This document shows positions 3,886 through 58,144 of a stretch of 64,000 nucleotides of DNA, piece by piece. The stretch comes from Macrotrachela quadricornifera (taxonomy: Eukaryota > Rotifera > Eurotatoria > Philodinida > Philodinidae). The position numbers and the translations under genes were made by a program. The notes beneath the pieces are model-generated. The model was not told where the DNA came from. It searched no databases and saw only the letters and a program-made list of their open reading frames with translations. The stretch's first letter is position 1; every line of letters starts with the position of its first letter. The stretch spans positions 2,141,944 to 2,205,943 of the forward strand of contig JAJEKB010021191.1 in NCBI GenBank assembly GCA_022393335.1, read 5' to 3'.

Positions 3886-5244
3886 ATGATGTTCAGTATG
3901 CATATTTATACATATCTGGTTAGTATACAGAAAATTGTTTGAAATAAATTATTCAAATAAAATATGTTTTTTTCTAGTTTATTTGCGGCACTATTATTCT
4001 TTTACTTCAAAACAAGCACTATGCTATTGGTTTTTCAATTAATACGAATGAAACATTGGAAGAAACATCGTTAACAACGAACACAACTACATTGGAAACA
4101 TCAATATTCCAAAGTGAGTATAAATACAATAAAATATGCTCGTTTCTTTTATTGTATTACAAAAACGATGTAATATAGAATTCTAACATTATTCTTATGT
4201 TGAATGAGAACAATTAGAAGATTTGGCACATTGTAAGCCTTACATCTCTGTAAAGAAACGATGCTGTCAAGCAGAAAAGTAATGACATAGCAACCCGTTT
4301 TGAAGATATATATTTTAATGAAGTAATTATTGATTAGCCATACTAGCATCCTTAATATTAGTTTCAACTGAGAGATGAAAGATGTTTATTTTCAAACTTG
4401 TTATATTCATTTTTTATTAGATATCACTTTTGAAAATGGAAATCGATATGAAGGATATTGGAAAAATGGTATGATGAATGGGAATGGAACTTGTTATTAT
4501 ACAAATGCAAACAAATATGTGGGTCATTGGGTTGACGATTATCGCGATGGATACGGCATCATAACATATACTAATGGAAATCGATATGAAGGTTATTGGA
4601 AAAACGATAGTATGAGTGGAAATGGAACTTATTATTACACGAATGGACAGAAATATGTAGGTCATTTGGTTTATAACCTTTACGACGGTTACGGTGTTAT
4701 GACATATACTGACGGAAGTCGATATGAAGGTTATTGGGAAAATGATATGATGAATGGAAATGGAACTTATTATTACGCGAATGGAAACAAATATGTAGGT
4801 CATTCAGTTGATAATTTTTACGAAGGATACGGCATCATGACATTTACTAATGGAGATCTATATGAAGGATATTGGGAAAATGATATGATGAATGGAATGG
4901 GTACTTATTATTACGCGAATGGACATAAATATGTAGGTTACTTAGTTGATGACCTTTACGACGGATATGGCGTCATGACAGATGTCAATGGAAGTCGATA
5001 TGAAGGACATTGGGAAAATGATATGATGAATGGACTTGGTACTTATTATTATGCGAATGGAAACAAATATGTGGGTCATTGGGTTGATGATTATTGTGAT
5101 GGATATGGTGTTATGACATATGCTAATGGGGATCAATATAAAGGATATTGGGAAAATGACACGAAAAATGGAGCAGGAATATTTATCTTTAACGACGGTC
5201 GTGTTCAACGAGGTATTTGGATTGATGACATCTTTATCAATTGA
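3886..5244 (+). CDS. Secreted or membrane-anchored MORN-repeat protein
   Basis: Three exons join in frame: 3886-3918, 3978-4113, 4421-5244 (330 residues). The long last exon alone would start inside intron sequence; joining it to the two small upstream exons supplies an initiator (ATG ATG at 3886) and a hydrophobic leader around residues 8-22 (LFICGTIILLL). A Thr-rich stretch follows at about 33-55. From residue 64 come eleven complete 23-residue MORN repeats and a partial twelfth, pattern Y-x-G-x-W...G-x-G...NG. Two repeat types alternate (YEGYW- and YVGHW-like), so the DNA shows a 138-base tandem period. MORN repeats are normally cytoplasmic lipid- or protein-binding modules; a signal peptide or signal anchor in front is unusual. 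The function is unknown; an extracellular structural or adhesive role is a guess. A polyadenylation-like AATACAATAAAC follows at about 5319. Confidence 0.85.
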
Positions 5245-21645: not shown

Positions 21646-24421
21646 ATGTTAAAAGTATATACTCTTTATGTGATTATACTTGCTGAAATTGTATACTGTA
21701 CATGTTCGATTGAGAAGATAAATGAAGCATGTTCAACAAATAGTCAATGTGCTAGTCTTCCAACAGGAGATGGAACTTCTACAATATGCGCTTTTAATTA
21801 TGCATCATGTAGTGATTTAACTGCTTGTGAAGATGATTATAGTTGTGCTCGTCCCAATACAGTCTGTCTCAAACATCGATGTCATATTCGTCCTGTTTGT
21901 TATCCAAAAAGTATGACAAGTCAAACAATTTGTCCTCCTCTCGCACGTAAGTCAATTATTGCATAAATAAATATTGTTCACCTTTTAAACAAACGTATTA
22001 AGATGAATAAAAATCTCTAAGAAAACTTATGATAAAAAAAGTTTATTATATAATTAAAATTAAATTAATTTCTGTTGGTTATTAGTATTTTGCTTTTTTA
22101 TTTAATTAGCATCAAATTCTTCTTGTTATTCATGTCAATGTCCAACACATATTGTTCCAGATTATCCCACACAATATTGGAGAGAAATACTAAAAACAAG
22201 TGGATCAAATCCATTTTCTGATGTTCCTAATTATAAAGTTTTTCGAAATGTTAAAGATTATGGTGCAAAAGGTGATGGAATAACAGATGATACACGTGCA
22301 ATTCAAAGTGCTATTTCAAGTGATAGTCGATGTTCAGCTGTATCAGCATGTGAAGGTTCAACATCTGAACCTGGTCTTATTTATTTTCCAAAAGGTACAT
22401 ATTTAATTAGTCGAAGTATTCAATTGGATTATTATACACAATTAGTGGGTGATCCATCAAATAACCAATTACCAACAATAAAATGTTCAAGTAGTTTTAA
22501 TCAAGGATATGTACTTGATGGTGATCCATATAATTCAATGGGAAATCTTGCTTGGGGTGCAACAAATAATTTTTTTCGTGAAATTCGAAATTTAAGAATT
22601 GATATGACTAGTATAAATTCAAATCTTGGTACAAGTGGTATTCATTGGCCAGTTGGTCAAGCTACAGCTCTTCAAAATATTGTAATAGAAATGTCAACAG
22701 CATCAGGAACACAACATCAAGGTTTATTTATTGAAAGTGGTAGTGGTGGTTTTATGAGTGATTTAACATTTTATGGTGGAAAAATTGGAGCATATTTAGG
22801 TAATCAACAATTTACATCAAGAAATTTAACATTTTATGGATGTCAAACTGCTATTGGTCAAATATGGAATTGGAATTGGCTTTATAAATCTCTTTCAATT
22901 AATAATTGTGGTGTTGGTATTGATATGTCTGTTAGACCAGGTCAAAATGAATCTGTTGGAGGATTAACAGTATTAGATTCACATTTTTATAATACTCCTG
23001 TTGGAATAATAACATCTGCTAGTGCATTATCTACACCTCCAAGTGCTGGACAAATTCTTTTAGATAATGTCTTTTTTGAAAATACTCCAATTGCTGTACA
23101 AAGTACAACATATCAAACATTATTACAAGGAAATCAATTGATTACTTCTTGGGGTCAAGGTCATGTATATAAACCATCTTCTAATACATTTAACTTTATG
23201 CGTGGTCCATTACCTCCACCTATTAAAGCTGCTGAATTACTTGATGGATCAAAATTTCTTGAACATTCAAGACCTGAATTTATTGAATATTCAATTAATA
23301 AATTTGTAACAGTAAAAAGTTTAGGTGCTAAAGGTGATGGAGTAACAGATGATACATCTATTATTCAAGATATTATAAATACATATGCATCTACCAGAAT
23401 AATTTTCTTTGATGCTGGTGCTTATATACATACAAGTACTGTTTATATTCCACCATATGCAATTATTGTAGGTGAAGTTGAATCAACAATAATGGCAACT
23501 GGTTCTTATTTTGGTGATGCAACAAATCCTAAAGCTGTATGGTCTATTGGAAAACAAGGTGAAATAGGTAATGTTCAAATAGTTGATATGCTTTTTTCAC
23601 ATAAAGGACCAGTACCAGGTGCAATTATGATGCAATGGAATTTAAAATCAACTTGTAATGGAAAATCTGGACTTTGGTCAACACATTTTCGAACAGGTGG
23701 TGCAAAAGGTACAAATCAATCACCATCAAATTGTCGAAAACTTACAGGTGCAGTTTATAGACGAGAATGTCAAGGTGCTTTTCTTCAACTTCATATAACT
23801 CCACTAACATCTCTTTATATGGAAAATGTTTGGCTTTGGGTATCAGATCATAATCTTGATTATCCTGATCATGATCAAATTGATATATTTAATGGAAGAA
23901 CTATACTTGTTGAAAGTCAAGGTCCACTTTGGATGTATGGAACATCAGCTGAACATTCTGTTTTTTATCAATATCAATTTGTTAATACGAAAAATATTTT
24001 CTTTGGACAAGCACAAACAGAATCAGCTTATTTTCAAAATGATCCACCAGCTCCACAACCATTTACTTCTCTTAGTAGTTGGTCTGATCCGGTTTTTGGT
24101 CAATGTTCATCAGATCAAATAACATGTGGAAAAGGATGGGGTGTTGATATTATTAATGCAACAAATTTATATCTTTATAATGCCGGTTTATATAGTTTTT
24201 TTCAAAAATGGAGTACTGATTGTATTGGAACAGGAAGTAATCGATATTGTCAAGATGGAATATTTAGAATTCGAGGCAATTCTCAAACAGTTTATCTTTG
24301 GAATCTTGAAACAGTAGGTGTTGAAAATATGGTTATAGTTAATGATAATAATAAAGTTAAAAGCAAAGATAATATTGGTGTTTTTGCTGATGGAATACTT
24401 AGCTATTTACCAACGGATTAG
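21646..24421 (+). CDS. Secreted GH55-type exo-beta-1,3-glucanase with Cys-rich N-terminal module
   Basis: Two exons, 21,646-21,946 and 22,110-24,421, join in frame to 870 residues. I start at ATG 21,646, giving the signal peptide MLKVYTLYVIILAEIVYCTC. Residues 22-95 hold about a dozen cysteines in an EB-module-like spacing. Two pectate-lyase-3-type beta-helix halves follow. The first opens near residue 148 (VKDYGAKGDGITDDTRAIQ), the second near 500 (VKSLGAKGDGVTDDTSIIQ). The duplicated GA-GDG-TDDT start is the hallmark of glycoside hydrolase family 55, and total size fits. GH55 enzymes release glucose from laminarin-type beta-1,3-glucan; this one probably digests fungal or algal walls outside the cell. 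Family members are mostly fungal and bacterial. The catalytic half lies in one long exon, so horizontal origin with an added animal-style secretory exon is plausible. The catalytic Glu was not mapped. Confidence 0.85.
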
Positions 24422-35970: not shown

Positions 35971-38127
35971 CTATAATTTTTTCGTATAACGCTTTTTGCC
36001 AAAAAGATATGAAATATGCCACTTCTTTTTCGACGAATTTCGTTTGGCCTTCTTTTTATGTGAGACTATTTCGTCATTCTCATCGGGCGTCTCCTCAAGT
36101 AGTTCTTCGATTATTGTCAAAACACGTCGATCAGCACGACCTTCTAATTGAACTTGTTCCGCTACTTGTCGTAAAACAATTGTTGGATCAGACTTATCCG
36201 TATTTATTGCTAATGAAGATAATTTATCATGGACTTTTTTATCCGTCTCATTTTGATTGAGAACTTGATTGTTTGCTGATGAATCGTTTAGAACATTCAT
36301 ATTCAATCTATTCAGAGCATCACCTGCTTGCTTTACGATAGTTTGATCTATATCGACAAAAGCTTGAATTACATGAAGAAGAAACAGAATACCACCTTGT
36401 TCGACAATAATTGTATTCGTTGGGGAAATTTCAGCGAGGAGACCAATTAACTGACAAGTTGCACTGATGTACAAGTTGGCATCGACCTTCGTTTCCAAAA
36501 TGGATTCACCAGTGCTGATCAAATGTTCAATAGAAGTCGCTGGAATCGGTTTCGGATTTTTATTCATTAAATGTAATAGTTCTTTAGCAGCTTTAGTGAT
36601 TTTTAATATGTTACGCTGTTCATTTCGTTGTTCCAATTCATATTTAAAATCCAAGAGATGATCTAAAACATTGGGTGGATTGAGATGAACCATTGATGAC
36701 TTGATGGTATCGGGCCACAAGTCCTCATTAGTATCAATTCTTTTGGAACCGATGACCAGACGAACATATACTTGTTCACAAGAGAGTCGCTCATCTGAAT
36801 CCTCATTCCATGTTTGATAAAGAATATTTGCAAAAATTCTTGGAATTTGTTCATACGAGATAGGTAATTGTTGACCTTCACAAATCTGTCGTATGATTTC
36901 TTCAGATGACTGATTTGCATAAGGCATCTGACCGGTGGCTAATTCCCATAAGACCACACCTAAACTGTAAATATCACTTGCTGTATTGAACATACGTCGA
37001 TGAATTGTTCGCAAAGTTTCCGGTGCAGACCAAGCTAGAGTTCCAATATTACCATGAATTTGTTCTAATCCAAAATCGTTTACTTTTGCTCGATATTTTC
37101 GACGATCACCACCATAATAATCCAAAAGAACATTTGATGATTTTATATCTTTATGAATAATCGGCGGTGAACAATAAGTATGAAGATAGAGAATAGCATT
37201 GGTAATCTGTTTAGCAATAGACCAACGATCAATCCAAGTGAATTCGATTTCTTTGTCTCTTAAGATGGTATTTAAGGATCCTAAAGGCATCAATTCACTA
37301 AGAACAAGATAACGGTCAGGTTCTTCGATACATGCACCTAGATGTTGCACAATATTTTCATGCCGAATACGCGTAAGAATTTCTACAGCTTTAATAAATT
37401 CCTGTCGTTCTTGTCCTTTCATGGCAGAAATTTTTAGCTCTTTAACAACAACTTTTGAATTGCTCCATCGTCCTTTATACACATTACCTGAACTGGCACT
37501 GGCAATCAATTGTTCGAATATGACTTGACTGTATTGAACATGGATGAAAAGTTTCTCCTCTTCATCCATGGATTGCCGTTTGTAATCATCCATTAATGCT
37601 TCGAGATTCTGTTTATTATTATCGATCAATGATTGGAACATACGTTCAATATTACCCAATTGAGTTTTATGCTGCTGTGAATATTCACTTTGTAAGTTAA
37701 TAATTTTATCAAAATTCTTTGCTAAAAATTGTCGATCATCACGTCGATCAGTTTCGTCCTGTTCACCTTTGAAATGGTTTTGCACAGATAAAGCTAAATT
37801 TAAATCTGTAGCGCAGGAAAAAAGTATTTGATTTAATTCATCAAATGTATTTCGATGGCATGCTTGATCATATACTCGAACAAACCAATTACTTTCAGTA
37901 AATTTCTTTATAAATGCATAACAACGTTCAACACAAACAAGTAATCGTTCCAATGCAGCTGTGTATTTGGCTGTCGATGTTTTTTTTGTATGCATTTGTT
38001 GAATTAATGGAACGAGAACTGAAATCCGATCATTTAAACGTCGACATCGTTTACTATTTGCTCGAACGTTGTCAACGAGAATTTTGATTTTCCAGGCGAT
38101 GTCTGCTATTTTCAACGCGATCTCCAT
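35971..38127 (-). CDS. MLKL-like kinase: N-terminal helical bundle, TKL-type kinase domain, ARM-like C-terminus
   Basis: One uninterrupted 718-residue frame. Residues 1-125 are helical with the pattern of the MLKL N-terminal/HeLo-type four-helix bundle (ALKIADIAWKIKILVDNV, CRRLNDRISVLVPLIQQM). A brace-like coiled segment at about 130-190 leads into the kinase domain (about 203-470). The Gly loop is ASASSGNVYKG (209-219), with the VVVK lysine at 229. The catalytic loop is HKDIKSSN (325-332, Lys replacing the usual Arg of HRD), then DFG at 351-353 and SAPE at 367-370. The C-terminus (about 500-640) is helical, armadillo-like, followed by a basic tail. In animals and plants, proteins with this bundle permeabilise membranes in necroptosis-like cell death; mammalian MLKL is a pseudokinase, whereas here the Lys, Asp, Asn and DFG residues remain. 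Activity in cell death is inference. An intronless gene is unusual beside its neighbours and may reflect retroposition or acquisition. Confidence 0.82.
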   Translation of the reverse strand: MEIALKIADIAWKIKILVDNVRANSKRCRRLNDRISVLVPLIQQMHTKKTSTAKYTAALERLLVCVERCYAFIKKFTESNWFVRVYDQACHRNTFDELNQILFSCATDLNLALSVQNHFKGEQDETDRRDDRQFLAKNFDKIINLQSEYSQQHKTQLGNIERMFQSLIDNNKQNLEALMDDYKRQSMDEEEKLFIHVQYSQVIFEQLIASASSGNVYKGRWSNSKVVVKELKISAMKGQERQEFIKAVEILTRIRHENIVQHLGACIEEPDRYLVLSELMPLGSLNTILRDKEIEFTWIDRWSIAKQITNAILYLHTYCSPPIIHKDIKSSNVLLDYYGGDRRKYRAKVNDFGLEQIHGNIGTLAWSAPETLRTIHRRMFNTASDIYSLGVVLWELATGQMPYANQSSEEIIRQICEGQQLPISYEQIPRIFANILYQTWNEDSDERLSCEQVYVRLVIGSKRIDTNEDLWPDTIKSSMVHLNPPNVLDHLLDFKYELEQRNEQRNILKITKAAKELLHLMNKNPKPIPATSIEHLISTGESILETKVDANLYISATCQLIGLLAEISPTNTIIVEQGGILFLLHVIQAFVDIDQTIVKQAGDALNRLNMNVLNDSSANNQVLNQNETDKKVHDKLSSLAINTDKSDPTIVLRQVAEQVQLEGRADRRVLTIIEELLEETPDENDEIVSHKKKAKRNSSKKKWHISYLFGKKRYTKKL

Positions 38128-38834
38128 GTCGAAGATGACGATAATATTAATGTTAATGGATGGTTATGTGACACTTACTTGCTGATAAGATGTTTGTCAA
38201 GCAATATTCGATAAGCAACACGAGTTTGCGTTCTTTATCTAAAAATTAAGTTGTTTGTCTCCTCGACATTAATATACTACTCATACAGACAAACAATGAA
38301 AAATCACGTATAAAAATCTATGCTTTTTACAATTTTATTCTTGAATGAAGTGTTAAATATACACAGCCATAAGTTGTAGATTTAGATTGCTTGAAGTATC
38401 GATTACATAAGTAATGAATTATTCAACCTTGTTATTATTTTATTATATTGACTTCATATAAATCTTTAATATGATAAATGTTTTGAGTAAAGTTTCTGTT
38501 CACAAGTAGATCATCATTGAAACAACTCGCTTTATTATCTTTTCGATGTTTAACTATGCATTTATACAGTGCCTGAATACGATTATTTGGACAACACATG
38601 TTAAGATGAAATATAGAGTGAACTGTGGTGATTCGGATCAGGAGTGTTAAAAGTTTTATTTTATTTTAGTTCGTTCTCACTCAGTGTGAATTGTGAAAAG
38701 ATGATTTTCGAACTACAACTAGACTAAAATGTCTCCTATGCACCGATGAAAGAATGTTTGACAAATTCTGTATTAGATAAAAGTATCAATCAAAGTAGTA
38801 AAAGGATGATTGAATTCATTCGAATTACCTCAAA
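38128..38834. other. Intergenic, upstream of the kinase gene
   Basis: AT-rich region that should contain the kinase promoter (minus strand). No motif is convincing enough to call. Confidence 0.4.
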
Positions 38835-39015: not shown

Positions 39016-40469
39016 TGGCTACGTTCTAATTGCGACAAAAAATTAAACTAATGAACATTTCAGTAGTCGCGATTTGGGAAGCAGATAATCACAAAGTTTA
39101 ATTGACAAAACATTTATTAACAAAGCAAGGTACGTGGTCTTTCACCAATTGTATCAAAATGATTCCACATAGTTGATGAAAATCGAACATCATCAATATA
39201 ATTTTTAATAACATAATCAGTTAGTTTTTCTAATTTTGAATCATAATTACATAATTCATCAATAATATTTTCCATGCAATTATTTATATGATTTGAAGGT
39301 CTTAACGGTAATGCAATAATATTAGCTATTTGTCGACGAATATTTTCTTGTTTTGATGATTTCACTAAATTATATTTTTTAACTTTTTTCCATATATTCT
39401 GAGCATAATGAAAATGGCATCCTTTGACTAATGATTGGCGAAATATATCGTTAATTGCATTAATCATACTTTGTTCAAAATCTATTAAAATAGTTGATGG
39501 AATTAATGTAATATTTTGTTTTGTTGCATAAACAAGTAACGATTTAAGTGATTCATGATAATATTGTTCAGATTTATTTTTACAACAAGAATATGATATG
39601 ATTGAGTAAATAATGCAGGTGATGTTCGAAATGTGCCGTCACCATTCCAATGTGGACTGCTGCTTAACAATTTTAATGCTTCTTCCGATGCAAATACTAT
39701 AACTTTGTTTGATGATGGTGAATTACAGAATAAAAATTCTTTTTTCATATTGTTGCAACACATGTCTTCAAGAATATTAATTGACGATATTGACAGTGGT
39801 GTTGGAGGTAATGTTGTTTTGCGAATAGAATATAATATTGATTCCCATGTTTCGAAGACTGATACTGCAGCAGCTGATCCGTTTTGCGGCGCTAAACAGA
39901 ATACATGGGATCATCTATGTGCTTTGCAAATTAAATGAACAAGTAATTACAAATTTTTTTACTTCTTCATAGATTTTTTTAATAGGTTGATCTATTTCAG
40001 TTAAAATTCGACGTTTCAAATCGCAAAATACATTTTGAACATTTTTGGTAATTTTGAACGATGTTTATGTGCTTCACCATTTGATGTTACAATTACATTA
40101 TTTTTTAAAGTAATAGCACGAGTACATTATTTGAACGTGCAGACATAAATTAATGTACCATTTTGATTTTTACGTTTTAATCGGTATAAGTAATTATTAT
40201 ATAAAATAGCTCTTTCACCTTTTTCGGTTGTTGACCAAGTAACTTTTGTATCCATAGTTTGATATGTATTCTGATTTCTTTTATTCTGATTTTTGTATAT
40301 TAATATTATTAATAGAACACAACTCACTCTAATTTTTCAATAACTGAATAATCAAAGTGGTCGCAATTTCGAAACACATTATAAGAGTAATCAACATACA
40401 TTACTGCGTTCCAAATTGCGACTATTGAAGTGTTAATTGGCTCAATTTTTAGTCGCAACTAGGAGGCCA
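39016..40469. mobile_element. Mutator-like element (MULE) with terminal inverted repeats
   Basis: The left terminus TGGCTACGTTCTAATTGCGAC is an inverted partner of the right terminus GTCGCAACTAGGAGGCCA. Similarity extends about 70 bases inward (left CAGTAGTCGCGATTTGGGAAGC, right TTCCAAATTGCGACTATTG). Flanking 9-mers ATGTTCCAA and CGGTTCCAA agree at 7 of 9 positions, the duplication length used by Mutator elements. The element contains a broken FLYWCH-MULE transposase on the minus strand and lies inside a hAT-like element. Confidence 0.75.
39117..40255 (-). pseudogene. FLYWCH zinc finger-MULE transposase, frameshifted
   Basis: From ATG 40,255 the frame reads MDTKVTWSTTEKGERAILYN and YLYRLKRKNQNGTLIYVC, the FLYWCH zinc-finger start. 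Stops and frameshifts follow. The MULE core reappears as FASEEALKLLSSSPHWNGDG-TFRTSP (39,640-39,720), with WNGDGTF covering the first catalytic Asp. After another frameshift comes SMINAINDIFRQSLVKGCHF-HYAQNIWKKV (39,380-39,467), the MULE 'F..A-..-fp..-.GC.FH..q' block. The frame ends at 39,117. It once encoded the transposase that mobilised the surrounding element and is now inactive. Confidence 0.75.
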
Positions 40470-47528: not shown

Positions 47529-50500
47529 ATGGAACCTATTGATGAGGATAGATTAAAACAATGTTTGAGTTCAATCATTGAAAAGATCGATGATGTTTTG
47601 AAAAGATTGAAAAACAAGCAAGGAACTACATCAGAGACACATCCGTCCAATGCTACGACTACAATCCAAGCTTCAGTTAATCCAAACAATCCTATCACTG
47701 ATAATCCATTACTCAATAATTCAATTCAGAATAACAATGTGAACACATTTACAGTTGATCAAGAGGAAAATGATTTATTAGATACATTAACTAATGATAT
47801 TCAAAATATATTAAGAAATTGGTTGCCACAATTATCAACTCCATGTTGTAAGTATGTTGAACAACATTTACATCAATATCATTTCGATTCTGAAAATCAA
47901 GTATTCACTGAAATGATCACAGCTAATATTCTATACTCATTTAAACATAATTTAAATGGTTTATTATTAGCTGTACGAGCTTATCCAGCTTCACTGAATG
48001 GAGATTTACAAACAGTTGATAAATTTCTCACACGTTATCCAGAATATAAAGATAAGCCAGGCTTTTGGGGTACAACATTATTATATTCAGCTGCAAAAAA
48101 TGATCATCTTCGTTTAGTTCGACATTTAGTTGAAACAAGTGGATGTTCTGTAAATGCTCGAAATGAAAGTGAAATGGCTTTTGCTTTGATAAATGATAGT
48201 GATACGAATCGAGAAAACACTCGTACTCTACCGTACAATCCGGATCCCAAGTTTGCTTCCACAGCGTTACATGCCGCATGTTTTAACAATAATTTGGAAA
48301 CTGTCAAATATTTGATTAGTAAAGGAGCAAATTATTTTTTAAGAAATCAACTTGGTGAAACGCCAGTACAAAATGGTAAAAATCATCAAGCAATACAAGA
48401 TTTCTTTAAAGATTATCTCATAACAACATATATGAATACATTTCATGTTCCTTTACCCACTGAACCTATTCTAGATTGTCATGATCGAACACCAAATAAT
48501 TGTATTTGGGAATATAAACCAGTCAAAGGACATGAATGGGAAGAATTTACTATGAGTGAACATAATACTTTATCTAATGCTTTAATAACAGAAAGAAATA
48601 ATCAATCATTTAATCCAACAACCTATTTGAGTGTTCGACAAGGTACATATAATGTAAACCTTCTAATACTTCTACGTAGTGGTAAAAATCAAGAACCAAA
48701 TCCATCAAATCAAGATAGTTCAGCATGGATTCGATGTCGTGGATCGAGTGTAGCTAATTTTGATCTTCATTGTGTTTGGCAATTGATGTTTGTTAAATAT
48801 GATACAAAACAAACACCTCAAACAGATATTCCATCGTTGGATTCCAAAATTCTTCCAACTGAGTATGATAGTAAATTTCAAATAAAGCTAAATTGTTGGT
48901 ATACATGTGATTCAAAAAGAAATACTCTATTAGATGATGCTATGAATTATAGACGACGATATGTCGATATTAATTGTAATTTTGATCTTGATTATAATGG
49001 AAATAAAATTATTAAATGTAATCTATATACATTTACATTAACAAATAATGATAAAACGATCTTAGGTTTTATAAGATGGATACCAAAATTAATTGCAAAT
49101 ACACCAAATGATCAAAATATAATTAAAGTATTAGATAATTTTAAAATGATTAATAATTTTAATCCAATACCATTATCAACTAAACGATTAGAACAATTGA
49201 CTGGATCGAAATCAACAACTGGATCAAGTATTACAACAACAGATGATGAATTAAATAATCCAACAGAATTAGGAGCTGATTCATCAACAAATGAAAATGG
49301 AACGGATGATGGAGATGATGATGATGATAAAACATATTCCAGTGTATCAGTCAATAATTTAGGTACTTGGAACTTAAATGATCTTTTGAACAATGATTCT
49401 CAGACAACAACTACACAAGGTAAAAAGAGAGATTCATTCTTTTTATAGGATATATCAAAATTTTCAACCCTTTTGTCATATAAACAAAAAGATTAATATT
49501 AGTCCCGAAATCTGATTAGCTGAATTTTCCCATACGGAGAAACATACAACCAATTTCGAGATTTACACCCTAACGACAAATAAGGGAACACTGGCACGCC
49601 CCACGTATAGGGATTAAGAGCCCAAGGGTACCTATAGTATAGCAGCTGAAGCCTAAGAGTATCTCCCTAGTAGACAAGTTAAGGCCCTAAAGATACCCTC
49701 CTAATATAGTACTTGAGAACTCCAGAATACCTCTATAATATAGTAGTGGAGCACTCAAACGTATCCCCATAGTACACCACTTGAGTATTTATGAGTTCTA
49801 TGGAAGATGCATTTTGATTGGTTGAATAAAACGAACCATATCAGCAATGCAGACAAACACAGAAACACACTGTCAATTTCAGGATTAAGACTCTGACTAC
49901 AGTCAAGGAAATCATTTTAAAAGAGACCTAATTATTTTATTTATATATCCAAGTATCTGATGAATTTAATTTTTTTTTCTGTATTGTATAGAAGACCTAT
50001 AATTTTGATATATCATATATCTTATTTTTCTAGACAATATCGTAGTACCAACAATTGAACCTAATCCCGCTGTCGATACACCAGTACCAAATCTTAATGA
50101 TTTCATTGATAAACGCATAGGTGAATCTACAAATGTATCAGAAAAGTTAGAAGTTAATCACGTTTCCGAAACAAGTAATCGTTCTAAACAAGATGATGCA
50201 GCCCAACAAGCTAAAGTTGCTCTAGAAATGGAAAATAAACAATTACAAGAAAAGTTAACTTCACTACAGAATCAATTTGACGAACAACTAAAACTTACAA
50301 GTGAACAAGGTGCAGTCAGTCAAATAACATTGAATACTACAATGGATCAATTAGAAAATTTGCAATATGAATTACGTACAAAAACTGAACAAGAAAATTT
50401 AATTAAACAAACTGCGAAAAATATATCTACTCTTGAATATACAATTCCAAAATCTAATCAAGATATACTTTTAAAATTCAATTTAATTATAAATACATTG

Positions 50501-53500
50501 AAAAAATTAGATTATTCATTAAAAGAATATTTTAAAGATAGTGTACCATTAATTGAATTCGATCATGATTATATTAGAAAAATAATTCTTCGTGGTTTTC
50601 CTATTCATCATAAAGAAATGAAAAATATTTTTGATGGAATAAAAAATTTAGTTCAACAAGTTCAATCAACTCAAGCTTATTATAAACAACGAACAAATAG
50701 AAATAAAGAATTTTTATTAAGAACAATTCGTCAAGTAAATCGAACAAATTCTATCCATTGGAAATCTTATTACAACTCAATAATTAAATTAATTAATCAG
50801 AAATATGATGGTTATATTGAAGATTTTAATAATTATATTAATGATAAATTAAAAAATCTTATTGATCTTTGTATTCAAAATTCATCACAACAATTTCGAA
50901 AAGATATTACTGACTTAACGAATGATTATATAAACAAAGAAACATTTTCATCTGATATTGAATTAATAAAACAAAATGCTCTTAATGAATTTATTCATGA
51001 ACATATTTTCTTACAACAAAAATCAAGTAAAACTATTCCAACAAAAGAATCAATTTTAACATTAAATAAACATATTGAAAATATAAAAAATATATTAAAA
51101 AATAATAAGGATTATAAAGGATATGAATTGAAACATTTTCAAATGATTTGTTCTCTATTACAATGTTTAATGATTTTTTATCATTGTTTTTTGGCACAAT
51201 TACCTTTATTCAATGCATCATTAGATCTTCTAAACAAGATTGAAACGAATACAGTAATAACAATTGAAACAGCAACAGGTTCCGGTAAGTAATATTTTCT
51301 TGAAGAATATATCAGAATAGAAACTTTGAATAAATAAATGATTTTTTTTTATTAGGTAAATCTACACTTCTACCTGCTTTATTAGTTGCTGCTGGTTATG
51401 ATAAGATTATTGTTACACAACCTCGACGTTTACCATGTACTTTAATATCTCAACGTGTAAATTCTATGGTCAATGATGATATTAGTGGTTGGGCAGTAAG
51501 TGGTGCTGAGAATAATATACAAGGAAAAATTCTTTATTTAACTGATGGTCTATTAAAAGAACGTTTATTAAATGATAAAAATTTTATAACAGATAAAACA
51601 AATGTAAAAAAATCTGTTATATTTTTTATTGATGAAGTTCATGAACGTTCAATTAATATTGATTTATGTTTAGCTTTATTTGCACGATTATTAAAATTAG
51701 ATCCACAATTGAAAAGAAAAATGAAAGTAATTATATCATCTGCTACATTAGATGCATCAGTTCCAACATTATATAAAAAAATTCCTGGTTGTTCATTAGC
51801 TACATTTGATCTCGTATCATTATCAACACTTTATCCAGTTACTGTTCATCCTGTACCTAATGAAAATCTTCTTGATCTTGTCCAACAACTCTATAGTCAA
51901 CGTACTCGACATGATCAAATATTATGTTTTGTTAATTCAACTCAAGATACACATGAAAATTGTCAATTATTAAAAAAAATAACTAAAGGTGCTATTGTTG
52001 CCTATCCTCTTATACAATCTCAGTCGGCTATTGATCAACAAAAATATATTGAACAAGGAAGTGTCTTTTTCTCTACAACAGTTGCTGAAACATCATTAAC
52101 ATTTCCATGTTTAAAATATGTTCTTGATACTGGTGTAATTAATATGCCAGTTTATAGTTTAGAATTAGAAAGAACTGAATTACAAGAAACAAAATCTGCT
52201 GAATCTACAAGAAAACAACGACTTGGTCGTCTTGGTCGAACACAACCTGGTGAATACTATGCTTTATATGATTATCCACCCGGTAAATTAAAAAAAATTT
52301 TTTTTTTAAATTATAAGTTAAACTAGTGGTAGTACCTGGCGTTGGTCGGGAAATATCCATGATGAAAACTTAGCATGTCAGGAAACGACAGAAGACATGT
52401 AGAAGGCTTGCTTATGACCTTTTCATCTATTATTACTACATCTCCCCGCCGTGCATATACTCACAACTATTCTTAAATCGGATAATTCAGCAAATAATGT
52501 GGAGTGTGAGTGTCTTTCACTTAACTAATGCCTATTGCCAAACTTTATACTAATACTCAATGCAAAAAGAGTGACAGTAGGAGGTGGATATTCTAAAAAT
52601 TGCAGCAAATGCTCTGATGTTTCTGAAAGATTCGTAAAGATTGGAACGTATCATAACCTGTGTGAAGTTTCACCCCAATTCTCCCGCCGGTTATTCTTAT
52701 CCCTCTCGATCCTCCTCGGGACCTATGAGTATGTTATGAAAAGCTTGACACCACTACCTCATGCGGTGTCCGAATGTATAAAAAACAGAAAAAAAAGACA
52801 AAATTTCTTCTTTTTAGATATAGATTATATAAGTTATGAGAAATGGAATTTTATCTCACTTGTTGCCTTCTTCATTCGATGGATATTTTCATTCATATAA
52901 CTGTTCTTCATTTTACACATTCTGTCAGTCTTTTTCGAGTATCCTAAAATGTCCTGTTCCTCTGGTTGAAAGAGTATTCTGTGCAAATTTTTTTTACCGT
53001 TGGTCATGCCGTGTCCAAATGAATAGCGAAAAGACAAACAGATAGACAGATAAACATTCTTCTTTATATATGTCGGTTAGAAACTTTCGGTTTTCACGTT
53101 TCGACCAAAGAATTATCAATACGAAATGATTAATTTTAGAATCATAACGAATTCACTAAATTTCCGGAAAATTGACACAAACTTCATTGCAATATGACTT
53201 GGTGAAAACTCACCCAAACACCCTCTTCTCACGCCTGTGAATGGTAATTGCACTCTCCAAAACTACCTCTGGACCAGTGTCCGGCGTGATCGTGGCCGTA
53301 GGTGAAAGTTAGTCACGGAATCATCCTTAAAAACTGATGTCAAAATGTTCAATATTCATTTTTTGAGCTAAATTTCATAATTGAGTATGAAAATCTTTAC
53401 TTTATTACTTTCCGCAGCAACATATTCTTGTTTGTTTCACAAGCGCGATCGATGTATCGGAACTTTGACATAATACATATTTGTTAAGAAAAAAAGTAGA

Positions 53501-56500
53501 GAGTTTTAACAAATTAGTAGAAAAGGCCGTGACTATGAACAAATACCCGTGACTGTGACGTGACCGTGACTAAAAATGGTTGGTCACATCAGACTCCACT
53601 CTAGACCTAGGAAAGCACCGTGGAAAGTTTGGTAATGTTAGCTATTACACCACTGTCTGGGTGAGATTTCACCGACACCCCACACCCCGATGACCATGCC
53701 AACCCCTCATCGACCTTCTTTGGGACCTAGAGAAGCATTGTGGAAAGTTTGGTGACGTTAGCTTTTACTATCATTGAGTTAGAAGCGAACAGACAGACAA
53801 ACATTCTTCTTTTTATATATACTAGAGGAGGTGTCCACTACAAAGAGAATATGGTTAAAGTTTTGTACCTTCCACCCGACTTTTTCTGCTATACATAACA
53901 CGTCTTTTACAGGACTGTTTCCCGCTGTGGCTGAGCCATCTGCAACAGACATTTTCTCGTCACCTCTCGAACCTCTATGACACGACTTTTACCGGTATGC
54001 GTCAGGCATCTTTAACAGGATTATTCCTGCTATGCGTTAGGTATTCTCCATAGAACTCTTCTCGCCGTGCGTGATACCTCTTTCATAGGACTTTTTTCAT
54101 CGTACCTGAAACCTCTGCTACAGAGCTTTCCCCACCGCGCGTGGAGTATCTTTCACAAAGCTTTTCCCGTCGTGCATAACGCAACTTCAGTGAGACTCTT
54201 CTCATCGGGCTCAAGCTGCCATCCTCACTCACGTCCACTTTGGATACGATCACTTTCAAAATTATATTGAACTGCGTCGTTTGATTAGAAAGTGAGTAAA
54301 ATCACAGTCTCTTACGACTTGGATGAAGTTTCATGCACACCTCCTTCTCTCACCTCCAATCACTCTGCCGACTTTTCTCAGCAATCAAGGAACTAATGCA
54401 AATAGTTCCTTGACGCTATCTCTCACAATGACTAAATACATTGCGAACAGACTCATCAGAATTTCGATCTGTATTGATCGCAATGAAATTTCACCCATCC
54501 CCTTCCGCGCACCCCGTTTGGTGATTTCAACCTCAAGTCGACTTTCCTCATGAGCTAAGGAAGTAGTGTGGAAAGTTTTGTGACACTAGCTATAACAGAG
54601 ATTGAATGCATAGCGAACAGACAAACGTTTTTCTTTAAATATATACATACGTCATCGTTGTGAGTCAAGAAAAACAACAAATACATTGTTTGTGTGAGTC
54701 ATAGAAAACAAATGGATACACAATAGTTGTGAATCAAGGAAACACTCCTATACATTGTTCTCTTATAACCTATTAGAAACCTTCGATTTTCACACTTACA
54801 CCAAAGAGCCATCAATACAAAATGATTAATCTTAGAATCATAAGAGATTCGCTAAATTTCTGCAAAACTCATGCAAATTTCATTGCCATATGACATGGGT
54901 GAAATTTTACCCTCACACCCTCGGTGGGTGACCCCGCTATGGCTTTCCTCCGGGCCTGGGGATGCACCATGGAAAGTTTGGTGATCGTAGCTCTTACAGG
55001 GCCGGAATGCATAGCGAACAGACGGACAAACTGACAGATATTCTTCTTTATATATATAGACAGATGTAAATGTTCTAGGTCAGCAAAGAAAATATCCAGT
55101 ACCACAAATATGTCAATCAGATTTAGTCAATATTGAATTTGCATTACGAAAATCTCAATTAAAACTAAGTTTAAGAGAATTTCAAGAATATTTACCAGAT
55201 AAACCAAAACGAGAATATATTGATGATGCAATTAAACAACTTCAACGTTTAGGTAAATTATATTTATAGAATTTAAAAAATTTTTTAATAAAAAATAATC
55301 TTTATTATCTCATTTAGAACTTATTGATAAATCTTCCAATGAACATTTCACTACTTTGGGTGCAGCAATTGCCAAATTACCTGATTTTAGCTCTTTACCC
55401 ATGTCCAAAGCTGTCCATGCTGCATTAAAACGATATCGCTGTGGTCGTGATTTAATTATTTTATCATCAATTTTATCTACTCTTAATACATCAACTGTAC
55501 TTAAATCAATTCCACCTGAATATAAACGTTCTGAAGGCGATTTTATGACACTTTTACAAGTAATGAATACAATTTTATTAGTTCGTGATGCAGTACCTTC
55601 AAAACAATTTAATCTTGATCGTGTTTGTACTGCTAAAGGATTATCTGCTGTTACACATGTGATTAAACCAGCATTACGACGATATAAAAATTTAGAAAAA
55701 GCTTTCAGTCTATCTGATGAATTTCGTGAACTTGCTCAAGTATCATCAGGCAATTGGGAAAATATAGCAAAAGCTTTATTAAAAGGATTTTCTGATAAAG
55801 TTTATGCATCTCAAAAAATTCTTCAAGGTAAAACACAAAAATATGTCAAATATAATGTTCCTCATCGAACATCGAATAACGAACAACAAGATTCATTAGA
55901 TGAAGCATCTGCTATAGCTGTTATTGATCGAACATCAACATTAAGAACTGGAAATAAAGGCGCGTTACCAGCATCATTAGTTTTAGCTCGTGATGTTCGT
56001 TATTTAACAGCCGTACGTTCATCAGCTATTCTATCATTTGTTGGACAAGTTGAATCAGCATGGTTAGAATATATTTTTAGTCGTGAATTAAAATTAAATG
56101 CAACAGAAGAACAAACATTAAAAACTAACAATATATTACAACAAACAATTCAACGATTTGCACATGCACAAATTCAAATTAATAATGGAAAATTAATATT
56201 TCATGGTACATCTGGTCATATTATTAATGCAGAACTTTATGTTCGGCAACAATTAGTGACTACATTAAATTTTACATTACCATTTTCATCAACTGATTCT
56301 AATGATAATCTAAAGAGAAATTTAGCGAGTGTGACAAGTATGCCAGGTGATTTGTTTGGTCCATTACGATGGCGTTGGGAATCTGAACATCAAGTTAAAG
56401 TACGAACAAAAATGCATAAGAATAATGGAACAATTGATGTCACTGTGGAAGGTCTTGATTCACAAAATCAAGCAGTACGTCAAGAATTTAAGTCATTCGA

Positions 56501-58144
56501 AAATTGGCTACGTACGTGTGCTGTTATTCGAGATCCAAATTCAGGTATGTTGAAAGAAATATATGAATTTTTTGATTAAGCAAAAAGAACACTTTTCTAA
56601 CAATGTAATGTTAAGAGATTTTACAAAAGATTGTTTGAATTTTAGGAGTTTCACCGCGAGTTTTAAAACCGCAAATACGTGATAAATTCCGTGATATGGA
56701 AGTCAAAATTGGCAATATTACTGATCCAGATCGAACATTAGTTGATATTTGGAAAAGTTTGAAAGGTCCCAAAGCCACACGTGAAACACGCATGGAAGTA
56801 GTTGCTTGGATAGCTGTATGTCAGTTTTATTGTCGATTAGAAGGTGGTTTTGTTCGTGATTGGGTTGTTGGAAATTATTCAGCACAACCAAAGAATGTAT
56901 CATCAAATCAATGGATAGAAAAACAAACATCTGGTATTCCAATGTTACATAAAGATTTTGTTCCTTCAGATCTTGATTGTCATTTACCACAATCAAAAAA
57001 TTTTGATGTAGAAGCTTTTTTAGATGCATTATATGGCTATGGAATTACAGCAACATCATGGAGACAAGATTGGCGTTATGTACTTTTAATAGATGAAAAT
57101 ACAAAGACTGGTCCATTCACAATGGATTTAATTGAACCACATATTGCTTTAACACATGATCGGATTGATTTTGATGTTAGTAATTTATCATTAGAACGTG
57201 GATATACAAAAGATTTAGGTATGCGTGTTGATATAACAGGTGGAACATATCCAATTCAACTTGAAACAATTGTTGAAAATATTCAAAATAAAAATTTTCA
57301 AGTTTTACGACCAATTGACGGTGAAAATGGACCAAATACAAAAGGAACAGTTGCTGAACGAATTGAAAAAATGAAATCAAGAGGATGGACACAAATCGGT
57401 ACACCCTTTTCATTTATTCCAAATCCTCCATCAACATATAATGCTGTTCTCGTACCTTATCCATCATCTACATTACTCTATCAAAATCTTGTAACCGAAA
57501 TAAAAAAAATATCGGGTGCAAATATCATATCAATTGAACAAATAAAAAATCCAAATATTGAAGCATTGTATGAATATATGAAACGAACTATAGCAAAAGA
57601 ATGTCCTGGTAATGATCCTAGAGAAAGAGAATTATTTCATGGAACCGGTGGTGAAGCAATTCAAGGAATAATTGATAGAGGATTTGATGATCGATACTAT
57701 AAAAATGGAGCATGGGGTAGGTTTATAAACTTATTGAAAAATTCTTTTTACAATTGTTAGATACACAGAGTTCAGATTTATTTGTTTCATAATATATAGC
57801 TTGGAGTTGCCACAGTTTATCATATAAATATTCATCTCTTTTTGAGATTTTAATTTAATTTTTTTTTGTTTTATTTAGGGAGTGGTGCGTATTTTGCTGA
57901 TGATCCTCGAAAATCGAATGGCTATGCACCCCCTGATCCAAATACACAACGTCGTGTTATTTTTTATAATAAAGTTGTATTAGGTATTGAATCTGTACAA
58001 ACGCAAGCAAACAATTCAATTAGAGCAGCACCACTAAATCATCATTCTGTTCATGGTACTGGATTTCAATACCATGAATACATTGTCTATCGATATGGTC
58101 AAGCTTTACCATACTTGAAAATTACTTACGCTGCGCCTACATAA
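47529..58144 (+). CDS. Ankyrin-DEAH helicase-nucleotidyltransferase-PARP multidomain protein (2268 residues)
   Basis: Seven exons join in one frame with GT-AG borders: 47,529-49,419, 50,034-51,284, 51,356-52,282, 55,079-55,252, 55,318-56,544, 56,646-57,716, 57,879-58,144. Domains: ankyrin repeats about 155-295; possible WWE-like CIWEYKPVKGHEWEEF near 325; coiled coil about 690-760; DEAH helicase from about 1040 with ATGSGKST (Lys1049), DEVH (1140-1143), SAT (1176-1178), AETSLTFPCLKYVLDTG (about 1291-1307) and QRLGRLGR (1335-1342). Winged-helix and ratchet regions follow (about 1380-1480). A nucleotidyltransferase-like head has GGFVRDW (1890-1896) and SDLDC (1931-1935). A C-terminal ADP-ribosyltransferase has His2155 (LFHGT), Tyr2185 (GAYFAD) and Glu2247 (HEYIVY), the H-Y-E triad of poly-ADP-ribosylating PARPs. 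Every core motif is intact. Likely an RNA-dependent remodelling enzyme that also modifies nucleic acid or protein; the in vivo role is unknown. Intron 3 (2.8 kb) is full of transposons. AATAAA follows at about 58,197. Confidence 0.85.
49613..49800. repeat. Degenerate minisatellite in intron 1 of the large gene
   Basis: Five or so imperfect units of about 34-36 bases recur. Each contains a word like AGAGTATCTCCCTAGTAGA, AGATACCCTCCTAATATAGT, GAATACCTCTATAATATAGT or CGTATCCCCATAGTACA, spaced by a CTTGAG/CTGAAG/GTGGAG-type linker. It lies wholly inside the 49,420-50,033 intron. Confidence 0.55.
52283..55078 (+). repeat. Transposon-filled intron 3 of the large gene
   Basis: The donor is at 52,283 and the acceptor TTCTAG ends at 55,078. 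Inside are several copies of one retroelement-like unit of about 290 bases. The clearest is 54,770-55,060; another is 53,078-53,825, interrupted by the MITE at 53,276-53,599. Partial copies lie at about 52,670-53,060 and 54,315-54,650. Copies share a CACCATGGAAAGTTTGGTGA-like block and end in GCGAACAGACAGACAAAC then TTCTTCTTTATATATA. No copy has coding sequence, so they look like 3' tails of a LINE or SINE family. Frames reported across this intron (52,535-55,105) are not genes. Confidence 0.65.
53276..53599. mobile_element. MITE, 'GTCACG' family, inserted in a retroelement copy
   Basis: Left end AGTGTCCGGCGTGATC, right end GGTCACATCAGACTCCAC, imperfectly inverted and related to the MITEs at 1118 and 12,173. 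Flanks TCTGGACC (53,268-53,275) and TCTAGACC (53,600-53,607) form an 8-base target duplication with one mismatch. The retroelement sequence resumes immediately after it, which confirms the borders. Confidence 0.72.

Follow-up and report, generated by a model that had tools for sequence, protein, structure and literature searches.

A conserved rotifer gene predicted to join a DEAH helicase, a nucleotidyltransferase-like domain and a PARP domain in one polypeptide

Several described protein families share parts of the layout encoded by a seven-exon gene at positions 47529-58144 (+ strand) of a 64,000-nucleotide stretch of Macrotrachela quadricornifera contig JAJEKB010021191.1 (hereafter the window). 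Tankyrases have in common with the predicted product (the window protein) ankyrin repeats and a PARP domain with an H-Y-E triad; however, they carry a SAM domain and ankyrin clusters, whereas the window protein has one short ankyrin block and extra helicase, KH, nucleotidyltransferase (NTase) and WWE-like parts. The WWE-PARPs (PARP7, PARP11 and PARP12) resemble it in combining WWE and PARP domains, although here a helicase and an NTase are added, and the two WWE-like domains are distant from the PARP domain. DEAH/RHA helicases (Prp16, Prp22/DHX8, HrpA) share all of its helicase motifs and a long Prp16-like alignment, and DEAH11-like helicases also possess KH folds after the helicase, but the window protein adds NTase and PARP enzymes to the chain. 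Unlike class II tRNA nucleotidyltransferases and the head of bacterial poly(A) polymerase, its NTase runs straight into a PARP domain. By contrast, uncharacterised bdelloid 'Poly [ADP-ribose] polymerase' proteins (P0006; P0018 and P0002, both from Adineta vaga) have identical modules in the identical order, and form one family with it.

Gene structure and predicted modules

The joined exons give a coding sequence of 6807 bases (2268 residues plus stop) with no internal stop codons, and all six introns are GT-AG and in phase 1, in agreement with the seven exons and single frame of 2268 codons proposed by a first-pass annotation of this DNA. The predicted layout runs from ankyrin repeats through a WWE-like pair, a DEAH helicase, two KH folds and a class II-like nucleotidyltransferase to a PARP domain; the earlier module list was right as to ankyrin repeats, helicase, NTase and PARP, but omitted the WWE-like pair and the two KH folds. 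Exon 1 (47529-49419, from the ATG start to the donor gtaaaa; residues 1-630) comprises the N-terminal region, the ankyrin repeats, the WWE-like pair and an acidic linker, and exon 2 (50034-51284; residues 631-1047) the linker, a pre-helicase region and the first part of Walker A. Exon 3 (51356-52282), assigned from the joined coding sequence, Pfam and a PDB match, runs from the second part of helicase motif I through motif VI, and exon 4 (55079-55252) holds the beginning of the region after motif VI (the winged-helix part), as judged from the joined coding sequence and the Prp16-like alignment. The accessory region C-terminal to the helicase and the two KH folds lie in exon 5 (55318-56544), the NTase domain and the start of the PARP domain in exon 6 (56646-57716), and the rest of the PARP domain with the TAA stop in exon 7 (57879-58144), all on the + strand.

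A Pfam scan of the joined protein, with matches listed to E 1, identified Ank_2 (E 4.9e-15) at residues ~154-282 (47988-48374), Helicase_C (E 7.7e-7) and PARP (E 6.2e-14). Families for DEAD, NTase, WWE and KH were absent from the matches; of the domains that the first-pass annotation proposed to search for, the NTase is predicted from its fold. The WWE-like pair, of a family of ADP-ribose readers, is predicted at residues ~323-405 (48495-48743) and ~409-516 (48753-49076) through alignment with homolog P0054, in which Pfam WWE scores above its cut-off (E 1.1e-10) over two stretches; in the second domain, a W and the IRW residues are aligned with the homologs. Pfam WWE was found at E up to 0.1 in two of 21 homologs, and neither Pfam nor PDB gave a direct WWE match in the window protein. 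Two KH folds are predicted between helicase and NTase at residues ~1663-1816 (56061-56522) from the modelled structure; both are without a GXXG loop, the loops between the modelled helices being NN in the first and MPGDLF in the second.

The DEAH-type RNA helicase core (residues ~1021-1410; 51203-55239, split by introns 51285-51355 and 52283-55078) matches Prp16-like 8cnt (E 1.2e-34), DHX8 and HrpA in the PDB. Motifs I, II (DExH), III, V and VI follow one another in order, as in the DEAH/RHA group, and the motif list of the first-pass annotation was correct, with ATGSGKST at residue 1044, DEVH at 1140, SSAT at 1175 and QRLGRLGR at 1335. As to the HA2/ratchet region, the Prp16-like alignment reaches into the part after motif VI; Pfam gave no HA2 match in the window protein, and HA2_N in homolog P0054 (E 0.1) falls below the cut-off. 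The 2.8 kb GT-AG intron (52283-55078) interrupts the helicase itself. A break into separate transcripts at this point had been named as the case that would undo the single-protein model; it is contradicted by helicase homology running across the junction, since the 8cnt match (residues 1-453 of a 525-residue query) spans it and homolog P0002 is unbroken there. The prediction of one polypeptide, with its modules in the stated order, is supported.

The same intron contains diverged internal repeat pairs, such as 53077-53225 and 54773-54922 (80%), which have no further copies in the window at E 1e-4. Neither does the gene: tblastn at E up to 1e-3 returned only its own exons, and Rfam gave zero matches at the gathering threshold over the whole window.

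The NTase domain (residues ~1860-2085; 56753-57430) has the GG...DLD signature announced by the first-pass annotation, with GGFVRDW at 56843-56863 (GGFVRD at residue 1890) and DLD at residues 1932-1934 (56969-56977), and in addition a third Asp at 57125-57127. A nucleotidyltransferase fold with GG, DxD and a third carboxylate is one of the marks of class II, and the best matches of the structural model are tRNA A/CCA-adding enzymes, which act on RNA 3' ends; the domain is accordingly described here as a predicted class II CCA/poly(A) polymerase-like fold. RIDFDVSN (57161-57184) begins the stretch RIDFDVSNL, which stands where PcnB has RRDFTINSL and which we take to be motif B of class II NTases. 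Its Asp is present in all 78 homologs with a residue there, and the position of the motif Asn is Asn in 40 and Ser in 36 of 78; the window NTase has Ser, in contrast to class II enzymes and the bacterial poly(A) polymerase head. The spacing between the RD Asp and DxD also differs, being nine residues in PcnB and 37 here. Neither PcnB nor Cca of E. coli was matched significantly by sequence (hhalign E 0.03-0.07 against single sequences), PolyA_pol is absent from the Pfam matches listed for 13 family members, and NCBIfam yielded nothing useful (E 0.16). DUF5769 (PF19073) scores 20.6 bits in the window NTase, below its cut-off of 26.1; with E allowed to reach 10, it matches 11 of the 13 family members (best 9.8e-6).

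A fold search of BFVD with the NTase returned proteins of giant viruses and phages (best E 6.0e-6), some of them bearing the name poly A polymerase head, which indicates a shared fold only. The idea that the NTase came from a virus or a bacterium was considered and rejected: scans with the NTase alignment gave nine pattern stretches in viral contigs and 11 in genome contigs, none of them confirmed.

The PARP catalytic domain (residues ~2113-2268; 57512-58141, split by intron 57717-57878) has the H-Y-E triad that characterizes the family and that the first-pass annotation had read from the sequence: H2155 (57638-57640), Y2185 (57890-57892) and E2247 (58076-58078). Tankyrase-1 is the nearest solved PARP by sequence (E 4.9e-15), with the catalytic Glu aligned. 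Membership of the tankyrases is nevertheless ruled out, as no SAM family matched the window protein in Pfam at E up to 1.

Distribution and constraint

A search with residues 1824-2268, covering proteins between 0.55 and 1.75 times as long as the whole protein at E up to 0.001, gave 80 homologs of the NTase-PARP region. Of these, 66 have bdelloid names (Adineta, Rotaria, Didymodactylos; seven from Adineta vaga) and 14 do not; no other animal is named among them. The architecture therefore recurs in other bdelloid rotifers, one of the checks originally suggested: P0006 (Rotaria magnacalcarata, 2258 residues) and P0014 (bdelloid, 2186 residues) have the layout of the window protein, although some database models are cut, that of P0002 beginning shortly before the helicase. 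A search with the NTase alignment, aimed at stand-alone relatives of the domain, gave closely similar proteins among the matches listed, the best 120 of 256 all having E 3.8e-85 or better and 51-87% identity. Outside the named bdelloids, P0074 (2362 residues, labelled complete) and P0078 (1850 residues) show the helicase-NTase-PARP order; their labels resemble those of transcriptome assemblies, so that their frames are probably single transcripts, and one of them is probably from Euglena. Six metagenomic proteins of 1610-2258 residues likewise join helicase, NTase and PARP. The database proteins that share the combination outside the bdelloids are probably of protist origin.

A second search, with the NTase-PARP region of P0078 as query, gave 67 matches, including P0202 and P0203, both without a bdelloid name. 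Matching the same query at E 1.9e-7 and 4.2e-4 (~40% coverage), P0207 (2168 residues) and P0208 (2173 residues), both of source ena, apparently have KH, Nudix and PARP-like parts ahead of the DEAH helicase and a C-terminal NTase with GGFVRDWVV and DID. In these two proteins KH falls below the cut-off (E 0.0014 and 0.0013), Nudix lies above it in P0207 (E 7.5e-5) and below it in P0208 (E 0.0067), and the PARP-like stretch is weak in P0207 (E 0.0018, below cut-off) and not listed for P0208. The occurrence of the same modules in two orders suggests that they act on a common target.

In an unrooted tree of the NTase region (33 rows, long branches meeting), the window protein shares a clade of six rows (support 100/99) with A. 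vaga I4U23_016986 and with proteins of A. ricciae, D. carnosus, R. sordida and R. magnacalcarata; P0002 and P0006 are inside this clade and P0018 outside. That the clade extends across bdelloid genera indicates a copy common to these genera rather than a recent local fusion. As to horizontal transfer, the tree gives no usable root or donor.

With gapped rows left out at each position, the NTase residues of the 80-homolog alignment are kept as strictly as those of the helicase (G1890 in 77/77, D1895 in 77/77, D1932 in 74/76, D1934 in 75/76, D1984 in 76/78), and the PARP triad is similarly retained (H in 73/75, Y in 61/63, E in 60/61). Among the 54 rows readable at all 15 key residues of the three enzymes, 51 retain every one of them; the exceptions are P0003 and P0036, with changes in the helicase, and P0067, with a change in the NTase. 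Changes also occur in P0064, P0073 and P0080, which are readable in part. Median conservation is highest in the NTase (61.1%) and helicase (60.7%) and lowest in the linker (21.8%). As far as alignments can tell, this is the pattern expected of working enzymes. The fusion is genuine, occurs widely and is under constraint. P0080 (Adineta steineri) has an aberrant arrangement in which the GG..RD start of the NTase, without the DxD part, leads directly into a PARP piece and then an ABC transporter; either this copy has decayed or the gene model was joined wrongly.

The first-pass annotation knew of no described protein with helicase, NTase and ADP-ribosyltransferase in this order. Dozens of database entries do carry the layout, under the names 'Poly [ADP-ribose] polymerase', 'unnamed protein product' or 'hypothetical protein', but we found no paper describing it: none was recognised in full-text literature searches, whose scope left out most subscription papers, so that an earlier mention is possible. 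The words 'helicase' and 'nucleotidyltransferase' are absent from the main text of a PARP survey (PMC4245714). We therefore regard this as a new combination of known domains, conserved and undescribed in the literature searched, whose function we infer.

Possible functions

We tentatively favor, with slightly less than even confidence, an RNA-directed enzyme that would open RNA, add nucleotides at its 3' end and transfer ADP-ribose to the RNA or to a bound protein. The ankyrin repeats may select partners or position the protein, while the helicase, together with the KH folds, would load onto and thread the RNA. The NTase, closest in predicted fold to tRNA A/CCA-adding enzymes, would extend the 3' end set free in this way. 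ADP-ribose would then be transferred from NAD+ by the PARP domain, and the WWE-like pair might read this mark, holding the product or gathering more copies. PMC6582358 reports that PARPs ADP-ribosylate RNA, as demonstrated with purified enzymes, and that PARP10, PARP11, PARP15 and TRPT1 act on phosphorylated RNA ends; PARP7 and PARP12, according to PMC4245714, bind RNA through zinc fingers. RNA is thus a known PARP substrate, but PARP10, PARP11, PARP15 and TRPT1 are not the nearest relatives of the PARP domain described here.

The module set and the number of paralogs, with several gene copies per bdelloid species, suggest a likely use in surveying RNA or in countering RNA that is foreign or damaged. 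A role directed at RNA, possibly in defence, would fit the DEAH helicase, KH folds, WWE-like modules and many paralogs, but is unproven. With the PADLOC defence models, bdelloid homolog P0006 gave a single weak match (ZorA, E 0.028) and the window NTase none, while the six matches of P0207 (best SngC, 7.5e-5) all lie in the helicase part, where any helicase might give them.

A protein-directed PARP seems a rather unlikely alternative. The helicase and KH folds would then act as an RNA sensor, the PARP domain would modify itself or proteins close by, giving a signalling scaffold for the WWE-like pair to read, and the NTase would either modify protein in an AMPylation-like way or make a small signal; the top NTase matches are, however, RNA 3'-end enzymes, and an RNA helicase within the same chain favors an RNA substrate. 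We also consider unlikely a self-contained RNA-marking machine that would unwind RNA, extend its 3' end, ADP-ribosylate that same end and read the mark through the WWE pair. Such a machine would be an old eukaryotic system of RNA surveillance or immunity that bdelloids and a few protists have retained and multiplied; the matches of our searches name no other animal.

Quite improbable, in our estimate, is a role in the bdelloid response to desiccation and radiation, in which an RNA or DNA repair PARP would restore damaged ends. A. vaga over-expresses 17 PARP genes at 2.5 h after radiation, and nine after rehydration (PMC10809525), but the passages concerned do not specify which PARPs, and 'ankyrin' and 'helicase' are absent from the main text. 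Proteins without a rotifer name also have the helicase-NTase-PARP order, which counts against such a role. So does the helicase type, as DEAH helicases have RNA as their main target. Finally, an artefact in which two or three neighboring genes have been joined is scarcely credible and was rejected: the model was read from genomic DNA only and includes a 2.8 kb intron, but that intron splits the helicase itself, and the same layout is found in the annotated bdelloid proteins P0006 and P0014, with helicase, NTase and PARP also joined in P0074, P0078 and the six metagenomic proteins.

Genomic surroundings and implications

Elsewhere in the window, ~9.4 kb upstream of the fusion gene, a 730-residue open reading frame (ORF; 35974-38163, - strand) couples a protein kinase domain to the N-terminal domain of MLKL (Pfam MLKL_N, E 3.9e-16), giving an MLKL-like kinase in a rotifer that is possibly linked to cell death. 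A 771-residue ORF (22106-24418, + strand) has pectate lyase-like RHGA/epimerase domains (PF12708, E 2.4e-96) and is possibly a horizontal gain. A fragment at 39120-39638 (- strand) contains a MULE transposase domain (E 1.6e-7), and a single ORF at 4372-5241 (+ strand) has ten MORN repeat matches and strong internal DNA repeats.

With an intact PARP domain physically coupled to a DEAH helicase and to a domain resembling tRNA nucleotidyltransferases, and with all three under constraint, this family is a direct candidate for a PARP dedicated to RNA in cells. Radiation-responsive bdelloid PARP genes have been interpreted in terms of DNA repair (PMC10809525); if some of these genes belong to the helicase-NTase-PARP family, this interpretation may need to include RNA.

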